This document shows, piece by piece, positions 21,478 through 32,056 of a DNA stretch of 64,000 bases (positions within the stretch are counted from its first letter, which is position 1; every line of letters begins with the position of its first letter). The stretch spans positions 10,044,001 through 10,108,000 of the forward strand of contig AP026538.1 of the NCBI GenBank assembly GCA_026075535.2, read 5' to 3'. The notes below the pieces were generated by a model, which worked only from the letters and a program-made list of their open reading frames with translations, did not search any database and was not told the DNA's origin. A program made the translations under genes and the position numbers. This DNA comes from Tricholoma matsutake. Lineage: Eukaryota > Basidiomycota > Agaricomycetes > Agaricales > Tricholomataceae.

Positions 21478-22001
21478 TCAATAGCTAGCAGCTGCAGGGA
21501 AGCCATATGGACATTCAGTAGAATGGTGGTGAACGTAAGTGCATTGGCATTTTCTGCAACCCTCTTTGGCATCTAACTCATGTTTTTCTTCCTTGTCAAT
21601 GGAGAGAGATTGACATGGGCAGTGCTCGAGGATGCAGTGGGGGCAGTGTTTGTATTCACCATATTTGCGGCTGCTGCATTCACAGTAAACTGTGAATGGT
21701 GACATTTATTGGAGTTGTTACCCATTCTCACTATCATCACATCTGGGTTTATGTTCACGAAACAGTTCTGCTACAAACTGTCAAGTGCGCAGACAGTCAG
21801 CATGGTGGGCATCATCAAGAGCCTTTACCGCCTGGGACCAAGGGCACAGCTGCAAAATAGTATGGCATTTTTCAGCACGACATCTCTGAGTGAGCTCTGA
21901 ATCGAGGCCTGCCTCAACCTTTTGGCAGAAAGCAGCCTCATCTTGGAATGAGGCAGTGTTGATGAGGAGGGAGTTTAGAGCTTGCATATGGTTGAAATAG
22001 T
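21478..22001 (-). pseudogene. Ty3/Gypsy gag, C-terminal half with zinc knuckle
   Basis: The minus strand gives FNHMQALNSLLINTASFQDE, AAFCQKVEAGLDSELTQRCR and HTILQLCPWSQAVKALDDAH, then a knuckle-like motif GCRKCQCTYVHHHSTECPYG (C-x2-C..H...C). The frame is cut at 22001 by the end of the inserted TIR element and resumes at 32057. The join TFWDY-FNHM is in frame if one 8-bp TSD copy is removed. Confidence 0.85.
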
Positions 22002-22603
22002 GAGGTCTTAACACTCCCCCCCGTATTCCTATAGGAATCTGATGATTCCAATGATTCCGATCAGACTCCGATTGGAATCCGACCATATTCCTATGTCATT
22101 TTCACCAGCCAAATTGACATGAAATGGCAGGTTCAGTCCTAGTCCAGTATGATGCAGTCCGATCAGAATCCGATTGGACCATCAGAATTTCCTAGGAATT
22201 TCTGACCATAGGAATCACATAGGAATATTCCGAGGTTATGCAGAGACATTGGACAACATGGGATTCCGATAGGAATGATAGCAGCATTGCTTAGTAATAG
22301 TAGAAAAAGTAGACATACATGGAGGTCTTTACACTCCCCCTGGTATTCCTATAGGAATCCAACCATATTCCGATGTCATTTTCACCAGCCAAATTGACAT
22401 GAAATGGCACATTTAGTCCTAGTCCAGTCCAATGCAGTCTGATCAGAGTCCGATCGGACTATCAGAATTTCCTATGAATTTCCGATCATAGAAATCACAT
22501 AGGACTAGTCCGAAGTTATGCTAAGACATCAGACAACATAGGATTCCGATAGGAATGAAAGCAGCCTTGCTTAGTAATATAGTATGAAAAATTAAACGCA
22601 CAG

Positions 22604-22685
22604 ACAAGAATTGAACACTTGACTACAGAAGATTATGTAAGTGTAAACTGACAACAATACCATTAGGCTAAACAATCATTACAGG
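22604..22685 (-). promoter_or_regulatory. Left tRNA-like module of the 8-kb element, facing outward
   Basis: On the minus strand TTTAGCCTAATGG (A box) is followed about 50 nt later by GTGTTCAATTC (B box). Transcription would run left, through the left terminal repeat. Confidence 0.55.
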
Positions 22686-22720
22686 TAAGTGATCATACTA
22701 CAATACATACCATTCCCATG

Positions 22721-22772
22721 GGTGTGATGACAAAGCACATAGCCACGTCATCACACCTGCCAGCTCATCAAC
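22721..22772. repeat. GTGTGATGAC hairpin, conserved subterminal module
   Basis: GTGTGATGAC and GTCATCACAC form a perfect 10-bp stem around a 15-nt loop, followed by CTGCCAGCTCATCA. Homologous modules follow the left tRNA-like block at 30457 and 45760 in the related elements. An open frame across it (22718-23005) is Pro/His-rich and not convincing as a gene. Confidence 0.55.
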
Positions 22773-23125
22773 TCCCACCACCACCACCAATGACAACAAG
22801 CACGCCACCTCCATCCCCCCCACCTCAACCACCTCAACCCAGCAACTCCCACCACTTCCACTTCACCCCCATCTCTAGACGAGCCCCCAAGACCGGAAAT
22901 GACTGGTTTTGTCGCCGTAGACTTGTAACCACTCCCTTGTACAGGTATGAGCGAGCGTCGATACCTTGTAGAGGGACTGGTGAAGCTGAGTTTAAAAAGG
23001 CATAGCATTACATTTTTTTGGAAAGAACATTTGTAATCTTCTAGAACATTTCCTTTCCTGGTATCTCTTCTGTAATGAGAATGCGATCAGAGATTAGGTG
23101 ATCGACAAGTGATCGGTTTCCTCTG

Positions 23126-25341
23126 TTGACTCGGACGACACTGGACAGCAACGTTCTCTCTGGTGTCTCTCTCATGCATTCTGTCCCTACTCTCGAGGAA
23201 TATCTTGACTATGTTCGTAAGGGTCCTGGTGATGAAGTCCTGGCTCTTCTACCAAATGCTATCGATGTCAACAGACTGCCGACTACTTATCTGGGTGAAC
23301 TACAACAAGATGATAAAATTACTGTCAGCAGGGCTTGTCTTCTCGCTTGGGCAGTTACTCGAGGCATTCAGGTTCCACGAGAACTGCAGCTTCATGCTTG
23401 CCTGGCCATGTACAACAGTTGAGACTCATTGATCAGCGCTGGGACCAGAAGTGGGAAGACCCTACCGATTGTTCTCAACTTGCTTCTTGACGACCCTAAG
23501 GATGCTGGAATCTCTCTCACAATATCGCCATTGAAAGGTCTACAAGTCACTCAGGTACGATTCCTTGACAGCCTTGACAAACTGTTGTTATGGTGTTATC
23601 GCTCACATGACAATCAGGCAAATGATCTTAATACCAACTATGGCATTCCAACCATCACAATCAACGATGACACCCCATGAGAGGATCTGTACTGGAATGT
23701 AAACCCATCCATCTAGACTCTCGTATATCTTTTTTCACTGTAACTACAGGAACACATCCATAACCTAGCCTCTTGTACTCCAGGAACCGCCCGCCACATC
23801 CTTGTTACTGTTGAACAACTATTTAAGACCCCTGAAGGCCACTATCCTCGGCTCGCAGCTCTCATTAGGCACAAGTTATTCCAGTGCAGGCTCAAGCGCA
23901 TTCATGTTGATGAAGCTCACTTCATCCACTCTGCTGGTCTCTCACACCACGGTGGCAAGCCCTTCTGACCGGCATGGGGACAACTGGATGAACTAAAGGC
24001 ACTTCTCCCACAGTCGATTCCTTGGCAGGCAATCTCGGTGACATATCCAACTCATATGCTCAAGACTGTGGAGACCAAAATTCTACATCCAAATTATGTT
24101 TCAATCTGTATCTCCTCAAATCGCCTGAATACAATGTATGCTACACACCGTGTGGTTTCAAAACTCGAAGAGCTCCGAAATTATGACTGTTTCCTGCTCA
24201 ATCCGTTTGATCTTGTGTCTCAACCTCGCGTTCTGATATTCTTTGACGATAAAAACTTGGCTACTTCTGTTTCGAATTATTTGGATAGCAAACTTCCTCG
24301 AGAGCACCGTGGAAAGGGCATAGTACAACACTATCACAGTGGGATGTCTGAACAGTATCTTCGTGTGGTGCATCAGTCCTTTACCCAAGAAGATGGCCTA
24401 TGCAAGATTTTATGTGCAACGTCCAGAGAATCTGTTGTACGACTCTGGCTTCAGTTGATTCCTTTTACTCATAGACTCCACATTTCAGGGTGTGGACTTC
24501 CCTGATGTCAAGATTGTATGTAATGTGGGTCTTCCCAGCAGCATTGTTGAAGCTCTACAATGGGGAGGTCGAGTTGGTCGTTGGGATGGATCCCAAGGCT
24601 TGTTTGTGATATTTTATGAGGTGTGGGCATTGACGATACCTCTCAATGAGTATGCTGACAGTAGATCTAATGACCCTGATCACCCTCGTGCCCTCTCCAA
24701 GCCTACCACATCATGGCAAGACCGTGCACCTCTCTCATGTGTACAGCTGATACGATGTCGAACATGTCTCCGACTATTCTTTGCTTCTTACCTGGGTGAC
24801 AACGCAGTCAATGGTGCACTACTCGATTTGCAAGCATGTCTATATTTATGTTTGCTCTACAGCTCTGCACTTCAACACTACGTTCTGTTGTGATAGACAC
24901 AAAGATGATGTGTTTGACCTCAATGACTTTTTGCCCAGTCCACTGTACACAGGTACTTCAATGAGCACTCTGACAAAACGCAAAGCACCTGCTCCTCATG
25001 TGAAGCGAAGAGTGGTGAAAGATTGGCAGGCTCTAGATCTGCATCTGATCAAATGGTTGACATCTGCCAGTGAGAATGACCCTCTTCGTGGTGTCCGATC
25101 AGTTGTGGATATTCTATCAGATCATAATCATGCTATGCTCATCTGTGCTAATCCTGCTTCGCTTTTCTCACCTTGCGCTATAACCAAACTCCTGGACGAG
25201 ACACAAGAATGGGCAGAGGAATGGTCGGCACTGTTGTTGGATGTGATTCGCCAATATGATAACAAACTCACTGCTTCTGGTGTCAACAACAAGGCTTTGC
25301 AAACTCAACCATCCCAGAAGAAATCAAAGATTGATTGCTAA
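23126..25341 (+). pseudogene. RecQ-like superfamily 2 DNA helicase, carried by the 8-kb transposon
   Basis: Exons encode an N-terminal helical part, then motif I SAGTRSGKT (usually GTGSGKT), an intron at about 23553-23617, NTNYGIPTITINDDTP, an intron at about 23699-23751, ARHILVTVEQLFKTPEGHYP, the DEAH box RIHVDEAHFIHSAGL, and motif III as SVT (usually SAT). The second RecA domain follows: RVLIFFDDKNLATSVSNYLD, IVQHYHSGMSEQY, KILCATSRESV, an intron at about 24440-24490, GVDFPDVKIVCNVGLPS and motif VI QWGGRVGRW (usually QRGGR). Helicases of this kind unwind DNA using ATP. In-frame TGA codons at 23421, 23678 and 23966 and the three motif changes are all explained by CpG transitions. It ends at 25341, tail to tail with the DUF6589-type gene, which argues that the two belong to one mobile unit. 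Confidence 0.9.
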
Positions 25342-25364
25342 CTATGGACCTCTACTTCTAGTTG

Positions 25365-28300
25365 TCATCTTCATTTCCCTCCCTAGTTGCATCATTGTCC
25401 TCTTCCCCATCCTCATGGCCAAACTCTGGTGTTGGCATCTCATCATCCTCTGGTATCAATACTCTTCCTGCGGCCATATCCTGTACCTTTTTGTTAAATG
25501 TTGCCAATGATGAAGCTAAAAATTTATTTCAGCCTTCAGTATGCAAATCTGGTACCAATTTTGCCTTTGACTGTCCTTCCTGATCCTGCACCACTTCCTG
25601 TAAGTGCAACTCACGCGCTTTGTTGGCTATGCGCCACACAAGCTTGGAGGTGTCAACTGTGTGATGTGTTGAAGCTTGATAATTAGCACGCATTGATCAT
25701 GCAACCCTGGTTTTGATTAGCTGAAGGTAATTGACAGCAGCAGATATGTCCCCAAGTCTCTCCCAGTTCGCATATATCCCCTTTGCAGCAAACAGTGCCT
25801 AGAGGAGAGTTTCTTGCAGTCAGGATAGAGCAATCAATCATCTGAAAGAGTGAGAAACCTTTAGGTACCGTATGATATGCTCAATATTCAAATCCATACC
25901 CATAGCGTGCCCTGGTAAGCCCGAAACATTGACAAGCATGTTGTTGTGCATGATATTTCTGACCAGTCATTAGTGCTTGTGAGCATAGTTATCAGATTAA
26001 CACATGCAAACTCAGGGGTCCAAACCTCCTTCAGATTGAATAAAAAATGCAAGATTTCTGTCGAGTAATTGTTTGACCCTGCAGCATGAAAAATGCATGC
26101 AAGATCGGGAAGAATGTCCTTGACATGCCCGAAATCACCATCCGAGACAGCTTTAACAAGTTCTATCACATAAAGTAAGTCATGCATGAGACGCACTACA
26201 TTTTTGCGAACAGTATCCTCAAACAGGGATTTTGATGGGGTGAGAGTCTCTTTGCTCGGAATGGACTGGTCTTTAGCTTCTGAGTCACGGTTGGCATCGT
26301 CATTGGCATTAAGACTTGATGATTTGGGTGACTTTGTTGCAGGTTTAAACTTTGCTGTGGGCATTGCATACTTCTGAATGATGACATGTGCCAAGTTTAA
26401 GAGAGTAGAAGGCATAGGATTTGAGTCAGCGAATGCTTGGAGAGATGGAAAGCCAGATATGTAACGCCATGCATGGATGACAAGGCCATCAAGAATCTGA
26501 GTAAGAGCAGACAACAAGGTGTGGAAGTCAGGGCGATCTGCATTTAACTGAACTTTTTCAAGCACTGCGAATAAATGTGACAAGCTCCCAAGTTGAGTGA
26601 TTGTACCTCGGTATGTATGAAGGAGTGCCCATATCAGATTCATTATCAGGTAGAATACACCGAATCTGAGCTGGAATATTTCCCGATGAGTCCATGCAGT
26701 AATGTCTTTCTGTCAGAGCACCTGGGCACCATGATTGCAAGCATTTGTAAGCTGGTCATGAATTGCAAGGATTGCAAGGTCGTTGAGATCATCAATAGTG
26801 CGCTTGAGCTGTACAAGATATATGTCATCATGAACAAGAATGTTCCCCTTCACTGATGCTTCCTTGATAGTTGAAACTCAAAGCAGAAAAAATCTGGTTT
26901 TATGATGGGGTGGGAGGGGGCAACGGGGTTGGTGTTGAAGATCAGGGTGCTTGTGGAGATGCGAAAATCTGGAGACATATTTGAAAAGGATCCTGATGAT
27001 GTTGACTTTGGTTTGGAGCTGGTAACACTCCATGGATTGCCTAGAGGGACAAAGATCAGTCATTTTGAGGGGTCCCGCCTTCAAGAAATGCTCCATTATT
27101 GGGGATATCTTCATGTGCTCTGAGTTGGCCCCGAGAACTTCAAATAAAACACCAACAGTTCCTGACTGGACTTTATTCGGAGCATTTGGTCCTTGCTCTG
27201 GGTGAATAGAGGTTGACTGGTTATAGTTGTCATACTGGAGACCATGTGGACCAGCAGCAATGACACGAGCATCTTCCAGTGCCCTCTTGGCGAGGGCTTG
27301 GATGATCAAGAAAATGGACGTGTATGACATTGATAAACAACCTTGATTTAAAATGTTGATGAGTTGTCGAGATGCGCCGGTGGACCATGCCATTAGACCA
27401 AGTCCAATCTGAACCTTGCATGAATGATATGACCTAAGGTAATGTACTTGGGCACTGATAATGCTTCATCCCTGATCAGAATTCAGTTCATAATTCAACA
27501 AGAGAAACTATAGCTGGTCACCATATGGCGATTCCTTGATTTAGATGTCTTCGGCTTAGCTTTGTCTTCTTTCGTTTTGCTCGCAGCCTCCAGAACTCTA
27601 GTCCACACAGGTGTTGTGTCTGAATTGATTTGGTCCATAAGCCCATTGATGTCCCATTGTGAAATAAACTCGGGTGTTATCTCCTGTGTTGTCATACTAA
27701 GCTTCGGTCTTGCACTGTCCATTTCATCATCAATAATATCGCACACAAGATCGACTGCATGTGGTTTCATCCATTCCTTCATGTGACTACAGCCTTTCTT
27801 GTTATTCCAGATGAGCTCAAGTAGACTCCGCAGCTTTGAAGAGTGCGCGTCTGTAAAGAATGCGGTCCTATATGTAGCAAAATCATTTGTTGAATCGTCA
27901 AGAACAAGCGCAAGAAATTCTGATGGTGGCATGCGAGCATCACGAAGTATAGTCAAGATAGTGTGTACAGCTTCAATTTTGGTGTAATGTTTTCTGCGTG
28001 GACAGGGGAGAGTAAGTGATAGTATTCCTTTCAGATTTCCAAAGTCTGTTGTATCATCGAAGGCCGGTTCAAGTTGATTGTCATACAGAGTTTCAGGAAT
28101 GGTATTGACAGATAATGGGGAGAGTAACGGATTGGAGGCAGCTGGGATGGAATACGAGCTCGGTGGACTCAAGGCTTGGCTAGCACGAACCCAGATTGGC
28201 TGTGAATCAGCTGTGGAAATTCTTAGATGATCATCAGGCATGACCGACAGCCTGATCATATTTTCATATTTTCTGTTGATAGCAGTGGCGGCGGAGGTGT

Positions 28301-28680
28301 ACTATCCTAGTTTCGGGGTGAGTCAATGTCAATTATAGTATTCCATGGAAACAGACTCGTTTTTTTCCGAGGTCAGACAAGGGTTCAAATCCCACATGTA
28401 CATATCATCTTGAAACCGGTGTGATGGTGTTTGTGGTGTGAAAAGTCCGTGATGTGCAGAAGTCGCAAGCATACAAGGGCCAGGTGTTGCTGAATTGGAG
28501 GTTGGACTCGGATATGCATGAAAAGTTGATAGATTCTGGTTCCATGGATGGTTTTGCTGTATACCTCTTCCTTTTGGTGGTTCCTGGAGCTGAGAATGCA
28601 TTGTAGGGATATTTGCATTGAATCTAACAGCCTCAAGTTCATCATGTTGACTGTGGTCACTGTGCATCGTGAGGTTTGAA
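25365..28680 (-). pseudogene. DUF6589-type protein (candidate transposase) of the 8-kb transposon
   Basis: This is a multi-exon minus-strand gene. The N-terminal part (28670-28320) is low in complexity. Then HYTKIEAVHTILTILRDARM, FLALVLDDSTNDFATYRTAF, WMKPHAVDLVCDIIDDEMDS and TPEFISQWDINGLMDQINSD appear (28000-27560). After an intron come GLMAWSTGASRQLINILNQG, AAGPHGLQYDNYNQSTSIHP and NKVQSGTVGVLFEVLGANSE (27390-27120). Then IHDQLTNACNHGAQVL, FQLRFGVFYLIMNLIWALLH (26790-26620), HTLLSALTQILDGLVIHAWR, VKAVSDGDFGHVKDILPDLA and NNYSTEILHFLFNLKEVWTP follow. The tail is acidic (to 25365). This order matches DUF6589 proteins of Agaricomycetes as I recall them. The YDN and HDQLT aspartates could be RNase H-fold catalytic residues, but that is inference. 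At least one CGA to TGA stop (near 26712) breaks it. Confidence 0.8.
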
Positions 28681-29130
28681 TCTTAAATCGGGAGAATCCT
28701 GGATGTGAATTGTAGTATCGTTATAAGGAGCAGTACGAGACGCGATGCGAGTGAATTTTTTCCTGAGATCGATCATGATCTGAAATCTTCGATCGCATTC
28801 CCATTACAGAAGAGATACTGAGAAAGGAAATGTTCTAGAAGATGACAAATGTTCTTTCCAAAAAAATGTAATGCTATGCCTTTTTAAACTCAGTTGTACC
28901 GGTCCCTATACATCGACACTTGCTCATGTACTAGGGATCGGTCACCGGTCTAGCCCCTGGCAACCCCCCTCCTCCCCATCAAAACGGGATGTGAGGGTAT
29001 CAATCATGGTCAGGAGCATGGGGAGCAACACCAGGAGACCCCAGAAGGGGAATACCCACCCGGTAAGCACCACCCGACCCCTCCCCTCGAGCCATGTCAC
29101 TGATGAACTGACAATGCACCCACCCCACAC

Positions 29131-29558
29131 CTACGAGCTGCTGCTCGTAGGGTGGATCATGAGTGCATGGACCCCCCATGACACCAATGACATCCAGCAC
29201 CCCCATCACTGCCATGAGCAACTGCTCGTGGGGTGTATATGGGGTGCGAGAACATGGGAATGGCATGGAGGGACAACGATGGCACCAAACGACACACCTA
29301 TGAGCAGCTGCCCATAGGGTGGTTTGTGGGTGCAGACAATGAGGGGGATGAACGACAAGGGTGATGAAACGACAAGGGGAAAGGGAAACGACAACCAGAA
29401 GGGGAGATGATGGTGACACCCGCCCCATGCACGCCTACAAGCATCTGCTCATAGGGTGTTTAAGGGAAGGGGGAGGGAGGGAGGGGATGATGGACAAATG
29501 CCACCACCAACATACGACACACCACCCACCACCAGCCTTGTGAGCAACTGCTCATGGG
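29131..29558. repeat. Array of five TACGAGC-NNNN-GCTCGTA hairpin modules in the 8-kb element
   Basis: Modules at 29131-29150, 29212-29231, 29297-29318, 29433-29457 and 29536-29558 each form a stem of 7-10 bp with a 4-nt loop, usually followed by GGGTGGATNNTGNGTG. The stem sequence varies between copies while pairing is mostly kept. Further copies lie at 31245-31268 and 31368-31385 (outer element) and at 46529-46553, 46852-46880 and 46925-46948 (third element). Confidence 0.75.
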
Positions 29559-29704
29559 GTGGATGGTGGGTGGAATGACAAGGGAGGGGAGACGAGGGAG
29601 GGGAGGGAAGCCACGGGGGAGGCGAGGTGAGGGAGGCGAGACACGATGGAGACGAGAGGGAGGGGAAACAATGGGACAGGGCTGATGAGACAGCCAACAC
29701 AATG

Positions 29705-29880
29705 CACCACCACCCCCTCCCCCCTGTTTTGCAGGGGGGTGAAGTTTTTTTGTAGAATTTAAAATAGTATAATTAAATAGTATAATTAATTCTCCCCCTT
29801 GCGTTTGCGTGGGGTTTTTTTTTTAAATCTATATTAGTTATCTACTCCCTCGCGAAGATGCGAGGGCTCAACAATTTTTT
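29705..29880. repeat. C-rich/G-rich hairpins followed by T runs, near the right end of the 8-kb element
   Basis: Three modules: CCCCCCTGTTTTGCAGGGGGG followed by a T-rich run (29717-29757), CCCCTTGCGTTTGCGTGGGG followed by ten or more T (29797-29825), and CCCTCGCGAAGATGCGAGGG (29849-29868). Equivalent modules occur at 31441-31545 and 47031-47232 in the related elements. They look like RNA-type terminators or fold-back spacers. Confidence 0.6.
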
Positions 29881-29961
29881 CGAGCTCTTGTGAGAGAGGT
29901 TAAAAATAAGTGAACTAATCCTAAGTGCTTTAAATGGACTTTATATTACATATTTATTAAT

Positions 29962-30047
29962 GCTCCTGTGGCTCAACTGGTTGAGCACTTGTTTGGTAGT
30001 CATGTCACTTATATCCCAAGGTCTAGAGTTCAATTCCTGCTCTGCCC
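29962..30047 (+). promoter_or_regulatory. Right tRNA-like module of the 8-kb element, facing outward
   Basis: GTGGCTCAACTGG (29968-29980, A box) and GAGTTCAATTCCTGC (30027-30041, B box) at tRNA-like spacing. Transcription would run right, through the right end of the element. Confidence 0.6.
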
Positions 30048-30339
30048 ATTTATTTTGTAAGCACTTTCATCAAGTTAAGTCTTCCGAAATGGTGTGGTAT
30101 TCCAACTACTACCTGTTGGAATTGCATAGGACTTTACTCAGAATTTACTAGGAATTTCTTGGAAACAACAGTACATGGTCAGCAAGATACATTCCGATCA
30201 GATTCCTATTGGACTCCTAGGACTAGTGTCAGACTAGTAGGACTCCTATCGGATTCTGATTGGACTTTTATCAGAAAACTCGGACTCCTAGGACTCTGAT
30301 AGGAATATGGGGGGGAGTGCAAAGTTTACCATACATGGC

Positions 30340-30420
30340 AGAATTGAACCCCGGAGCTCTAATATGATTACCTAAACTTACAGTAACAACAAGACCACTA
30401 CACTAAGCAGTCATTGCAGG
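30340..30420 (-). promoter_or_regulatory. Left tRNA-like module of the outer element, facing outward
   Basis: On the minus strand CTTAGTGTAGTGG (A box) and GGGGTTCAATTC (B box). It is followed at 30457 by the GTGTGATGAC hairpin block, in the same order as in the 8-kb element. Confidence 0.6.
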
Positions 30421-30639
30421 TACGTGCTCATACTGCACTACATACCATTCCTGCGGGTGTGATGACAAATCACATAGCTGCGTCACCACACCTGCCAGCT
30501 CATCATTCTCCCACCACCACCACCTCCACCAACAATGATGACCACGGCCACCTCCCCACCTCAACCACCACCACCACCACCATTCCCACTCCCACTCCCA
30601 CTCCCGTGCCATCAAGAGGGGCCAATGGCCATCAACGGA

Positions 30640-30910
30640 CACAAGTGGCCCAAATGATGGAATTGTTGTTTGGGCTGTGGTAAGTTTTTTTTCATTCGTT
30701 TCTTGTTTTCTAAACTAACTAACATCTTTTGTTTGTTTTTTAGGTCCTAAACTACAGGGTAATGACGGACGGACGGACGGACTGGCCCAAACGATGCAAT
30801 CCGCATTGTTTGGGCCCTAGGCAAGTTTTTTTTTTCCCTTTGACTTTGAGTTTACACTAACTAATGTTTTTCTTTCATCTTCTAGGTTCTAAACTGTTGG
30901 TAACAGCGGA
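30640..30910 (+). repeat. Two units of palindrome plus intron-like spacer in the outer element
   Basis: The palindromes GGCCCAAATGATGGAATTGTTGTTTGGGC-type (30636-30670) and GGCCCAAACGATGC...GCATTGTTTGGGCC (30784-30818) are each followed by a T-rich spacer. The first spacer starts GTAAGTTTTTT, contains CTAACTAAC and ends TTTTTTAG, like a spliceosomal intron. Four related units form the 45919-46515 array. Confidence 0.65.
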
Positions 30911-31677
30911 GGGCCGTGAGATGACCCCGATGATGATGCCAGGGCCCCACCACAAACACCCATGGAGATGAAGAGGGACGGGAAGGGAGACAAGGAAGTG
31001 ACAACAACAACAACAACAACAGGGAGGGGAAGATGAGGAAGTGACAACAACAACAACAACAACAGGGAGGGGGAGACAAGAGGGTGGAGGGGGAGACAAG
31101 AGGGTGGAGGGGGGAGGGGGAGATGAGGGGAAGGCAACAGGCACCAGCACCAGACAAGACGAGGGCGGCAAGGGACAATGATGGGGACAACGAGGGGGTG
31201 GGGATAATGAGATGGCACCCTGAACGACACACCACTCACCACCAGCCTCATGAGCAACTGCTCATGGGGTGGATGGTGGGTGGAATGATGAGGAGGAGGA
31301 GGAGCCAAGGGACACATGGGGTCTACAAGAAGGAAATGGCGCCCCAGCACCCAAACCCCACCACTGTGAGCTTTGCTCGTAGGGTGGAACGGGTGCTAAT
31401 GGCCATGTCACCACCTCCACACTGAAACAAATTGCAACACACCACCACCCCCGCAAAATGGGGGGGGTGGTTTTTTGTTTTTGTAGAATTTTAAATAATA
31501 TAATTAATTGTCTCCCCCCTGCATTTGCATCGGGGGGTATTTTGTTAATCTATATTAGTTATATTAGTTCCTCGCATCTTCACAAGGGCTCATCAATTTT
31601 TTTTTGAGCTCTCGTGAGGGAGGTTAAAAATATGTGAACTATCCCTAAGTGGACTTTGTATCACATGTTTAATAATT

Positions 31678-31760
31678 CTCCTGTGGCTCAACTGATTGAG
31701 TGCTTGTTTAGTCATCATGTGACTTACATCCCATGGTCCATGGTTCAATCCCTGCTTTAC
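31678..31760 (+). promoter_or_regulatory. Right tRNA-like module of the outer element, facing outward
   Basis: GTGGCTCAACTGA (A box) and TGGTTCAATCCCTGC (B box). It is close kin of 29962-30047 and lies the same distance from the right terminus. Confidence 0.6.
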
Positions 31761-32056
31761 CCATTCATTTTGTAAGCACTTGGGGAAATTTTCACCAAGT
31801 TAAGTCTTCCAAAATGTGGTAGTCCGACTTCATGTTGGAATTGCATAGGACTTTACTAGGAATTTACTAGGAATTTCTTGGAAACAACAGTACATGGTCA
31901 GCAAGATACATTCCGATTGGATTCCTATTGGACTGCTAGGACTAGTGTCGGACTAGTACAACTCCTATCAGATTCCGATTGGACTCTTATTGGAAAACTC
32001 GGACTCCTAGGACTCCGATAGGAATATGGGGGGGAGTGCAAAGTTTACAAAATAGT

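Follow-up and report, generated by a model that had tools for sequence, protein, structure and literature searches.

A RecQ-like helicase gene and a DUF6589 gene share a 6.0-kb inverted-repeat transposon nested in a 2-kb element of Tricholoma matsutake

Helicase-encoding DNA transposons and the T. matsutake locus

The AcademH lineage, which Kojima reportedly described in 2020, is said to be the helicase-encoding branch of the Academ superfamily of DNA transposons. Here we describe the computational analysis of a Tricholoma matsutake locus in which a gene for a RecQ-like superfamily 2 (SF2) helicase and a gene of the Pfam family DUF6589 (PF20231) lie tail to tail in one DNA transposon. The locus is part of a 64,000-nucleotide stretch (the window), which corresponds to C1:10044001-10108000 (C, contig) of a 161-Mb genome in 13 contigs. 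Two points of general background are useful for comparison: the target site of Kolobok elements is TTAA, and hAT and P elements make 8-bp target site duplications (TSDs).

Several described systems resemble this locus in part, and they are cited here from those portions of each source that were available. AcademH elements have TSDs of 9 or 10 bp and AcademX elements of 3 or 4 bp, lengths that have been tied to their helicase and nuclease (PMC10045372), and AcademH reportedly has a low copy number in its hosts in Basidiomycota, Ascomycota and Mucoromycota (PMC10799480). Non-autonomous MULE and Academ elements are widespread in Marasmius oreades (PMC8290104). In KolobokH, a fungal Kolobok lineage, a RecQ helicase is found downstream of the transposase domain, and a red-algal Kolobok has RecQ on the complementary strand (PMC9587614). 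Zisupton makes an 8-bp TSD. Agaricus bisporus var. burnettii has multiplied subtelomeric RecQ helicases that consist of the helicase core only (PMC7473861). No description of a RecQ-DUF6589 element was found in the available text of the open-licence literature, and the terms Academ, helicase and DNA transposon are all absent from a paper on T. matsutake transposons (PMC6980582).

We hold with high confidence that positions 22918-28952 of the window form a 6.0-kb cut-and-paste transposon with terminal inverted repeats (TIRs), 9-bp TSDs and convergent genes for a putative DUF6589 transposase and a RecQ-like SF2 helicase, which landed in an element of ~2 kb, works like AcademH and probably belongs to it. 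The features of the locus are as follows.

22002..32048: another copy of the 2-kb host family, cut in two by 22322-30329; flanked by GAAATAGT / AAAATAGT
22314..22321, + strand: left 8-bp TSD of the host element, CATACATG
22322..30329: host element interrupted by the gene-pair transposon, ~1,973 bp without the insert; ends GAGGTCTTTACACTCCCCC / GTAAACTTTGCACTCCCCC
22918..28952: RecQ-DUF6589 DNA transposon, 6,035 bp, ends TAGAC...GTCTA; set by the homology limits of other copies and common termini
22918..23095, + strand: left TIR; aligns with the right arm over 178 columns at 84%
23102..25341, + strand: RecQ-like helicase gene, decayed, in several open reading frame (ORF) pieces; from ORFs and Pfam
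25888..28301, - strand: DUF6589 gene (predicted DDE transposase) with in-frame TGA stops; PF20231, 9.7e-45
28784..28952, - strand: right TIR; from alignment with the left arm
30330..30337, + strand: right 8-bp TSD of the host element, CATACATG

The likeness to AcademH lies in a RecQ-like SF2 helicase encoded beside a predicted transposase, in 9-bp TSDs (at seven of 19 paired loci, eight of ten miniature inverted-repeat transposable elements (MITEs) and one 1.4-kb derivative), and in a transposase that would be of the DDD/E type, as judged by its predicted structure. The copy number (44 pairs found, plus MITEs) is above the reported low-copy state of AcademH. KolobokH elements are likewise fungal DNA transposons with a RecQ-type helicase, and the red-algal Kolobok, in the available account, has it on the opposite strand as here; unlike KolobokH, however, the helicase of the T. 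matsutake element is a separate, convergent gene on the strand opposite to DUF6589, and its 9-bp TSDs vary in sequence rather than being TTAA. The 9-bp length also differs from the 8 bp of hAT, P and Zisupton. By description, the multiplied helicases recall the core-only subtelomeric RecQ genes of A. bisporus, whereas many of those in T. matsutake are scattered over the contigs and have a DUF6589 partner, and at several loci the pair lies within TIRs.

Ends, target sites and recurrence of the gene pair

The boundaries of the transposon emerge from its other copies, for which 20 kb around each of ten other RecQ-DUF6589 pairs were read, with window positions 21900-30800 as the blastn query. The closest copies, at C12:4.24 Mb (95.8% identity, homologous over 22918-28961) and C11:3.68 Mb (95.1%, 22918-28952), cease to be homologous at these limits, and the copies at C12:8.28 Mb (76-82%) and C9:4.92 Mb (74-80%) start and stop within 2 bases of them. 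Copies that share this boundary carry 5'-TAGAC at both ends, inside inverted repeats of ~100-180 bp; the TIRs of the window transposon measure ~170-178 bp and begin with the same bases.

Ends and TSDs were examined at 19 of the 28 pairs from the first helicase query (the window, ten loci read over 20 kb and eight through short sequences where their ends were expected). Perfect 9-bp TSDs flank seven of them (CATTTGGAT, GTTAAGTCC, ATCTCCTGG, CTGAGTACG, AGTCTCAAT, AGTATGAGT and GCCACAGCC), and another has a TSD that matches at 8/9 bases (ATATTAACC/GTATTAACC). Three loci have both ends without a TSD (the window, its duplicate and C12:4.24), three show a single end and four lack both. The remaining locus, C11:3.41 Mb, differs in its ends and is flanked by an ambiguous repeat of 9-11 bp. 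It represents a second helicase lineage, again arranged tail to tail with DUF6589 (L017, L018), with relatives at C10:1.71, C10:7.48 and C4:11.04 Mb; in this sole copy of the lineage to be read, the ends are CAG..CCTAAAACC and the flanking repeat spans 9-11 bp. A 109-bp inverted pair at C12:4.90 Mb, 12.9 kb apart, was rejected as element ends because no flanking repeat of 8-10 bp accompanies it.

Short derivatives have the same ends. A terminal 25-mer pattern has 214 genome matches at up to 2 mismatches, against 0 for its reversed control, and among 100 of these matches there are ten forward/reverse pairs that measure 52-151 bp end to end (L033-L042), MITEs with little beyond the two TIR tips. 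Eight of the ten are flanked by perfect 9-bp TSDs and two by none; in the eight, nine bases match exactly and an 8-base register at the same ends fails. A 1.4-kb derivative at C3:254 kb has the 9-bp sequence ACATGTTGG on both sides. The element is thus a TIR-bounded unit with ends of its own, which it shares with MITEs, and with TSDs of 9 bp. Elsewhere, at C3:8628343-8636194 (7.9 kb, with a helicase match), two ends of the same type (TAGACCGG) face each other without a TSD, and this arrangement is possibly a recombinant.

The gene pair recurs across the genome. DUF6589 has at least 117 matches in at least 90 merged loci, a lower bound that comes from scoring 102 of 249 candidates. The first helicase query gave 54 RecQ-like loci, of which 28 have a DUF6589 locus within 5 kb, in every case tail to tail. 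Two further queries, one of them after removal of four short matches to the terminal repeat, brought the helicase loci to 158; a tail-to-tail RecQ-like gene then lies within 5 kb of 44 of the 90 DUF6589 loci, two loci have another arrangement and 40 have none within 10 kb. Random placement, for which the length of contig C7 was guessed, gives a mean of 1.08 and a maximum of 4 pairs within 5 kb, in any arrangement, in 200 placements. The RecQ-like and DUF6589 genes are therefore a true unit. The original prediction, made from the window alone, had the two genes traveling together in one DNA transposon whose mobility would explain their joint multiplication; the first point is borne out by these 44 tail-to-tail loci, and the second holds for them within this genome. 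The pairing suggests a two-protein transposition machinery, as had also been proposed. The 40 loci without a helicase nearby (for example at C2:2493, 2726 and 2890 kb and C5:821 kb) include several with near-equal scores over the same match range, and loci of this kind may be a helicase-less lineage or decayed copies.

Predicted functions and decay of the two genes

A transposase fold and DDE chemistry are predicted for DUF6589. A confident AlphaFold model of an intact protein (predicted local distance difference test, pLDDT, 87.7) has as its best fold matches the P-element, Hermes, ISCth4 and RAG1 transposases, and rows 1-31 of the structure comparison (VIA) are all transposases or RAG1. DUF6589 shares with the P, hAT (Hermes), RAG1/Transib and ISCth4 transposases a predicted RNase H-type fold in which a large helical insertion precedes the last acidic helix, but at the sequence level no similarity to a solved structure was found up to E 10. 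Two aspartates are kept in almost every row of the DUF6589 alignment, and neither E619 nor E605 was upheld across alignment A5 as a certain third catalytic residue. From its modeled fold, DUF6589 is very probably a DDE transposase.

Searches based on domains add the following. With regard to the MULE-type transposase domain of MuDR/MULE elements, a Pfam scan of two intact proteins gave DUF6589 only, and a remote link may exist. Fusions of DUF6589 with XPG or RecQ are absent from the Pfam columns of 37 long-protein matches, which speaks neither for nor against Academ. A relative in viral contigs was considered and dropped, with 49 pattern matches and 0 confirmed.

The two window genes were correctly placed from the start, with helicase ORFs at ~23.1-25.3 kb on the + strand and DUF6589 at ~25.9-28.3 kb on the - strand, and both are decayed. 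The DUF6589 gene is 94-95% identical to T. matsutake protein P0171 over two exons, with 2 TGA codons inside; four loci match P0171 at 90-97% over both exons, the best being C12:4.24 Mb (95 and 97%). The Helicase_C piece at 24459-24893 scores 21.9 bits, just below the Pfam cut-off of 23.5, and in the related C9:4.92 Mb copy the exons match DEAD and Helicase_C above the cut-off and, as a fragment, TIGR00614 recQ_fam. Since both genes contain stops, the window copy is taken to be dead. Copies differ for the most part by transitions, many of them at CpG (129, or 67%, of 193 mismatches between the window and C12:4.24 Mb, and 118 of 244 between the window and C11:3.68 Mb; observed/expected CpG ratio, 0.51), a pattern that would be expected of methylated repeats. 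Among stops in the gene matches TGA is the most frequent, and together with the transitions and CpG changes such stops point to decay of a methylation- or repeat-induced point mutation-like type.

If intact copies function as modeled, DUF6589 would catalyze strand transfer and could move the MITEs in trans, and the helicase may unwind the transposon ends, or strands at a gap or excision intermediate.

Affiliation, nesting and competing explanations

Membership in AcademH, judged from published descriptions of that lineage, is a probable one based on shared properties. The main alternative is a new superfamily, in which DUF6589 is unrelated to Academ transposases and its pairing with RecQ arose separately from AcademH. 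In its favor, Pfam and NCBIfam link DUF6589 to no named transposase; against it, AcademH is itself reported with a helicase and TSDs of 9-10 bp (PMC10045372, in the part available), and its reported hosts in Basidiomycota, Ascomycota and Mucoromycota (PMC10799480, likewise) are matched by DUF6589 relatives in Mortierellomycotina (Podila, Linnemannia, Haplosporangium). We consider a new superfamily unlikely, and are as doubtful of the broader proposal that DUF6589 is a DDE superfamily of its own rather than Academ, with the RecQ-like helicase as obligatory second protein, whose spread through Agaricomycetes and Mortierellomycotina drove both gene expansions. The earlier statement that no described superfamily has this gene pair was probably too strong, given what is available on AcademH (helicase, 9-10-bp TSDs) and KolobokH (fungal, RecQ).

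It is very unlikely that DUF6589 has an accessory or DNA-binding role and that the RecQ-DUF6589 pair is passenger cargo of an element moved in trans by another transposase. The catalytic activity of DUF6589 is a prediction and its third acid is uncertain, but no third gene was recognized between the TIRs of the window transposon from ORFs or Pfam, the best fold matches are DDE transposases, and two aspartates are conserved in almost all alignment rows.

The surroundings of the AcademH-like transposon account for the larger boundaries proposed originally. The imperfect 19-bp ends are present at 22322 and 30329, and beyond them CATACATG is perfectly repeated over 8 bp, at 22314-22321 and at 30330-30337. 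The flanks do belong to a related element (22002-32048, GAAATAGT/AAAATAGT): its left end GAGGTCTTAACACTCCCCC lies at 22002 and its right end at 32048, so the 8-kb block is nested in a sister element. The 19-bp host end has 1,976 genome matches at up to 2 mismatches (9 for a reversed-pattern control), and its 13-bp core has 2,175 (control, 101). The ~2-kb family with GAGGTCTTTACACTCCCCC ends and 8-bp TSDs is very numerous genome-wide.

Host relatives elsewhere settled the insertion site; when the host flanks were joined and aligned with the sister element in the window, the region near the junction was uninformative. Among the 40 of 1,414 candidates that were scored, the joined flanks (180+180 bp) match C2:5449597-5449953 in one piece at 90%, and other places in two pieces ~160-175 bp apart. 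In an alignment of six host copies the host sequence continues across the insertion site, and ~165 bp present in five of the six is missing from the window copy; the C2 copy is without nearly the same stretch. The window transposon has no 9-bp TSD at its ends, which this loss can explain. Target DNA may have been lost during or after the insertion, or the transposon may have gone into an already deleted host copy, with further loss.

The original prediction was to be refuted by gene pairs elsewhere without such ends or TSDs, and this test went against the 8-kb boundaries. A search at up to 5 mismatches in the ten 20-kb loci gave an end pair with TSD only at C1:11.60 Mb, the rest being scattered single matches, and among 100 listed matches to the 19-bp end (of 1,976), which cover C1 as far as 12.3 Mb, two are no more than 10 kb from one of the DUF6589 loci of that contig, namely the window and its duplicate (seven such loci, six within the range listed, with proximity checked by eye). 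The C1:11.60 Mb locus is a duplication of the window insertion of at least 20 kb, 98.4% identical over all 20 kb fetched; window positions 16967-36972 recur there in inverted orientation (C1:11591352-11611351), 1.5 Mb away on the same contig. A single 8.0-kb transposon at 22322-30329 with CACTCCCCC ends, an 8-bp TSD and both genes inside is therefore rejected and keeps hardly any credibility: its ends and perfect TSD are real, bracket both genes and recur at C1:11.60 Mb, though by duplication, whereas other copies have only 22918-28952 in common, an end pair of this kind with a TSD is absent from every other paired locus for which 20 kb was read, the host end occurs ~2,000 times in the genome, and host sequence occurs without the gene pair. 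The 8-kb block merges two nested transposons, the 6-kb gene-pair element and the ~2-kb element around it.

Separating the two corrects a boundary error caused by nesting. DUF6589, a Pfam family of unknown function, gains a probable function as a transposase, and the element explains the joint multiplication of RecQ-like and DUF6589 genes in this mushroom genome. With exact ends, TSDs and MITEs in hand, it becomes testable whether DDE transposition needs a helicase.

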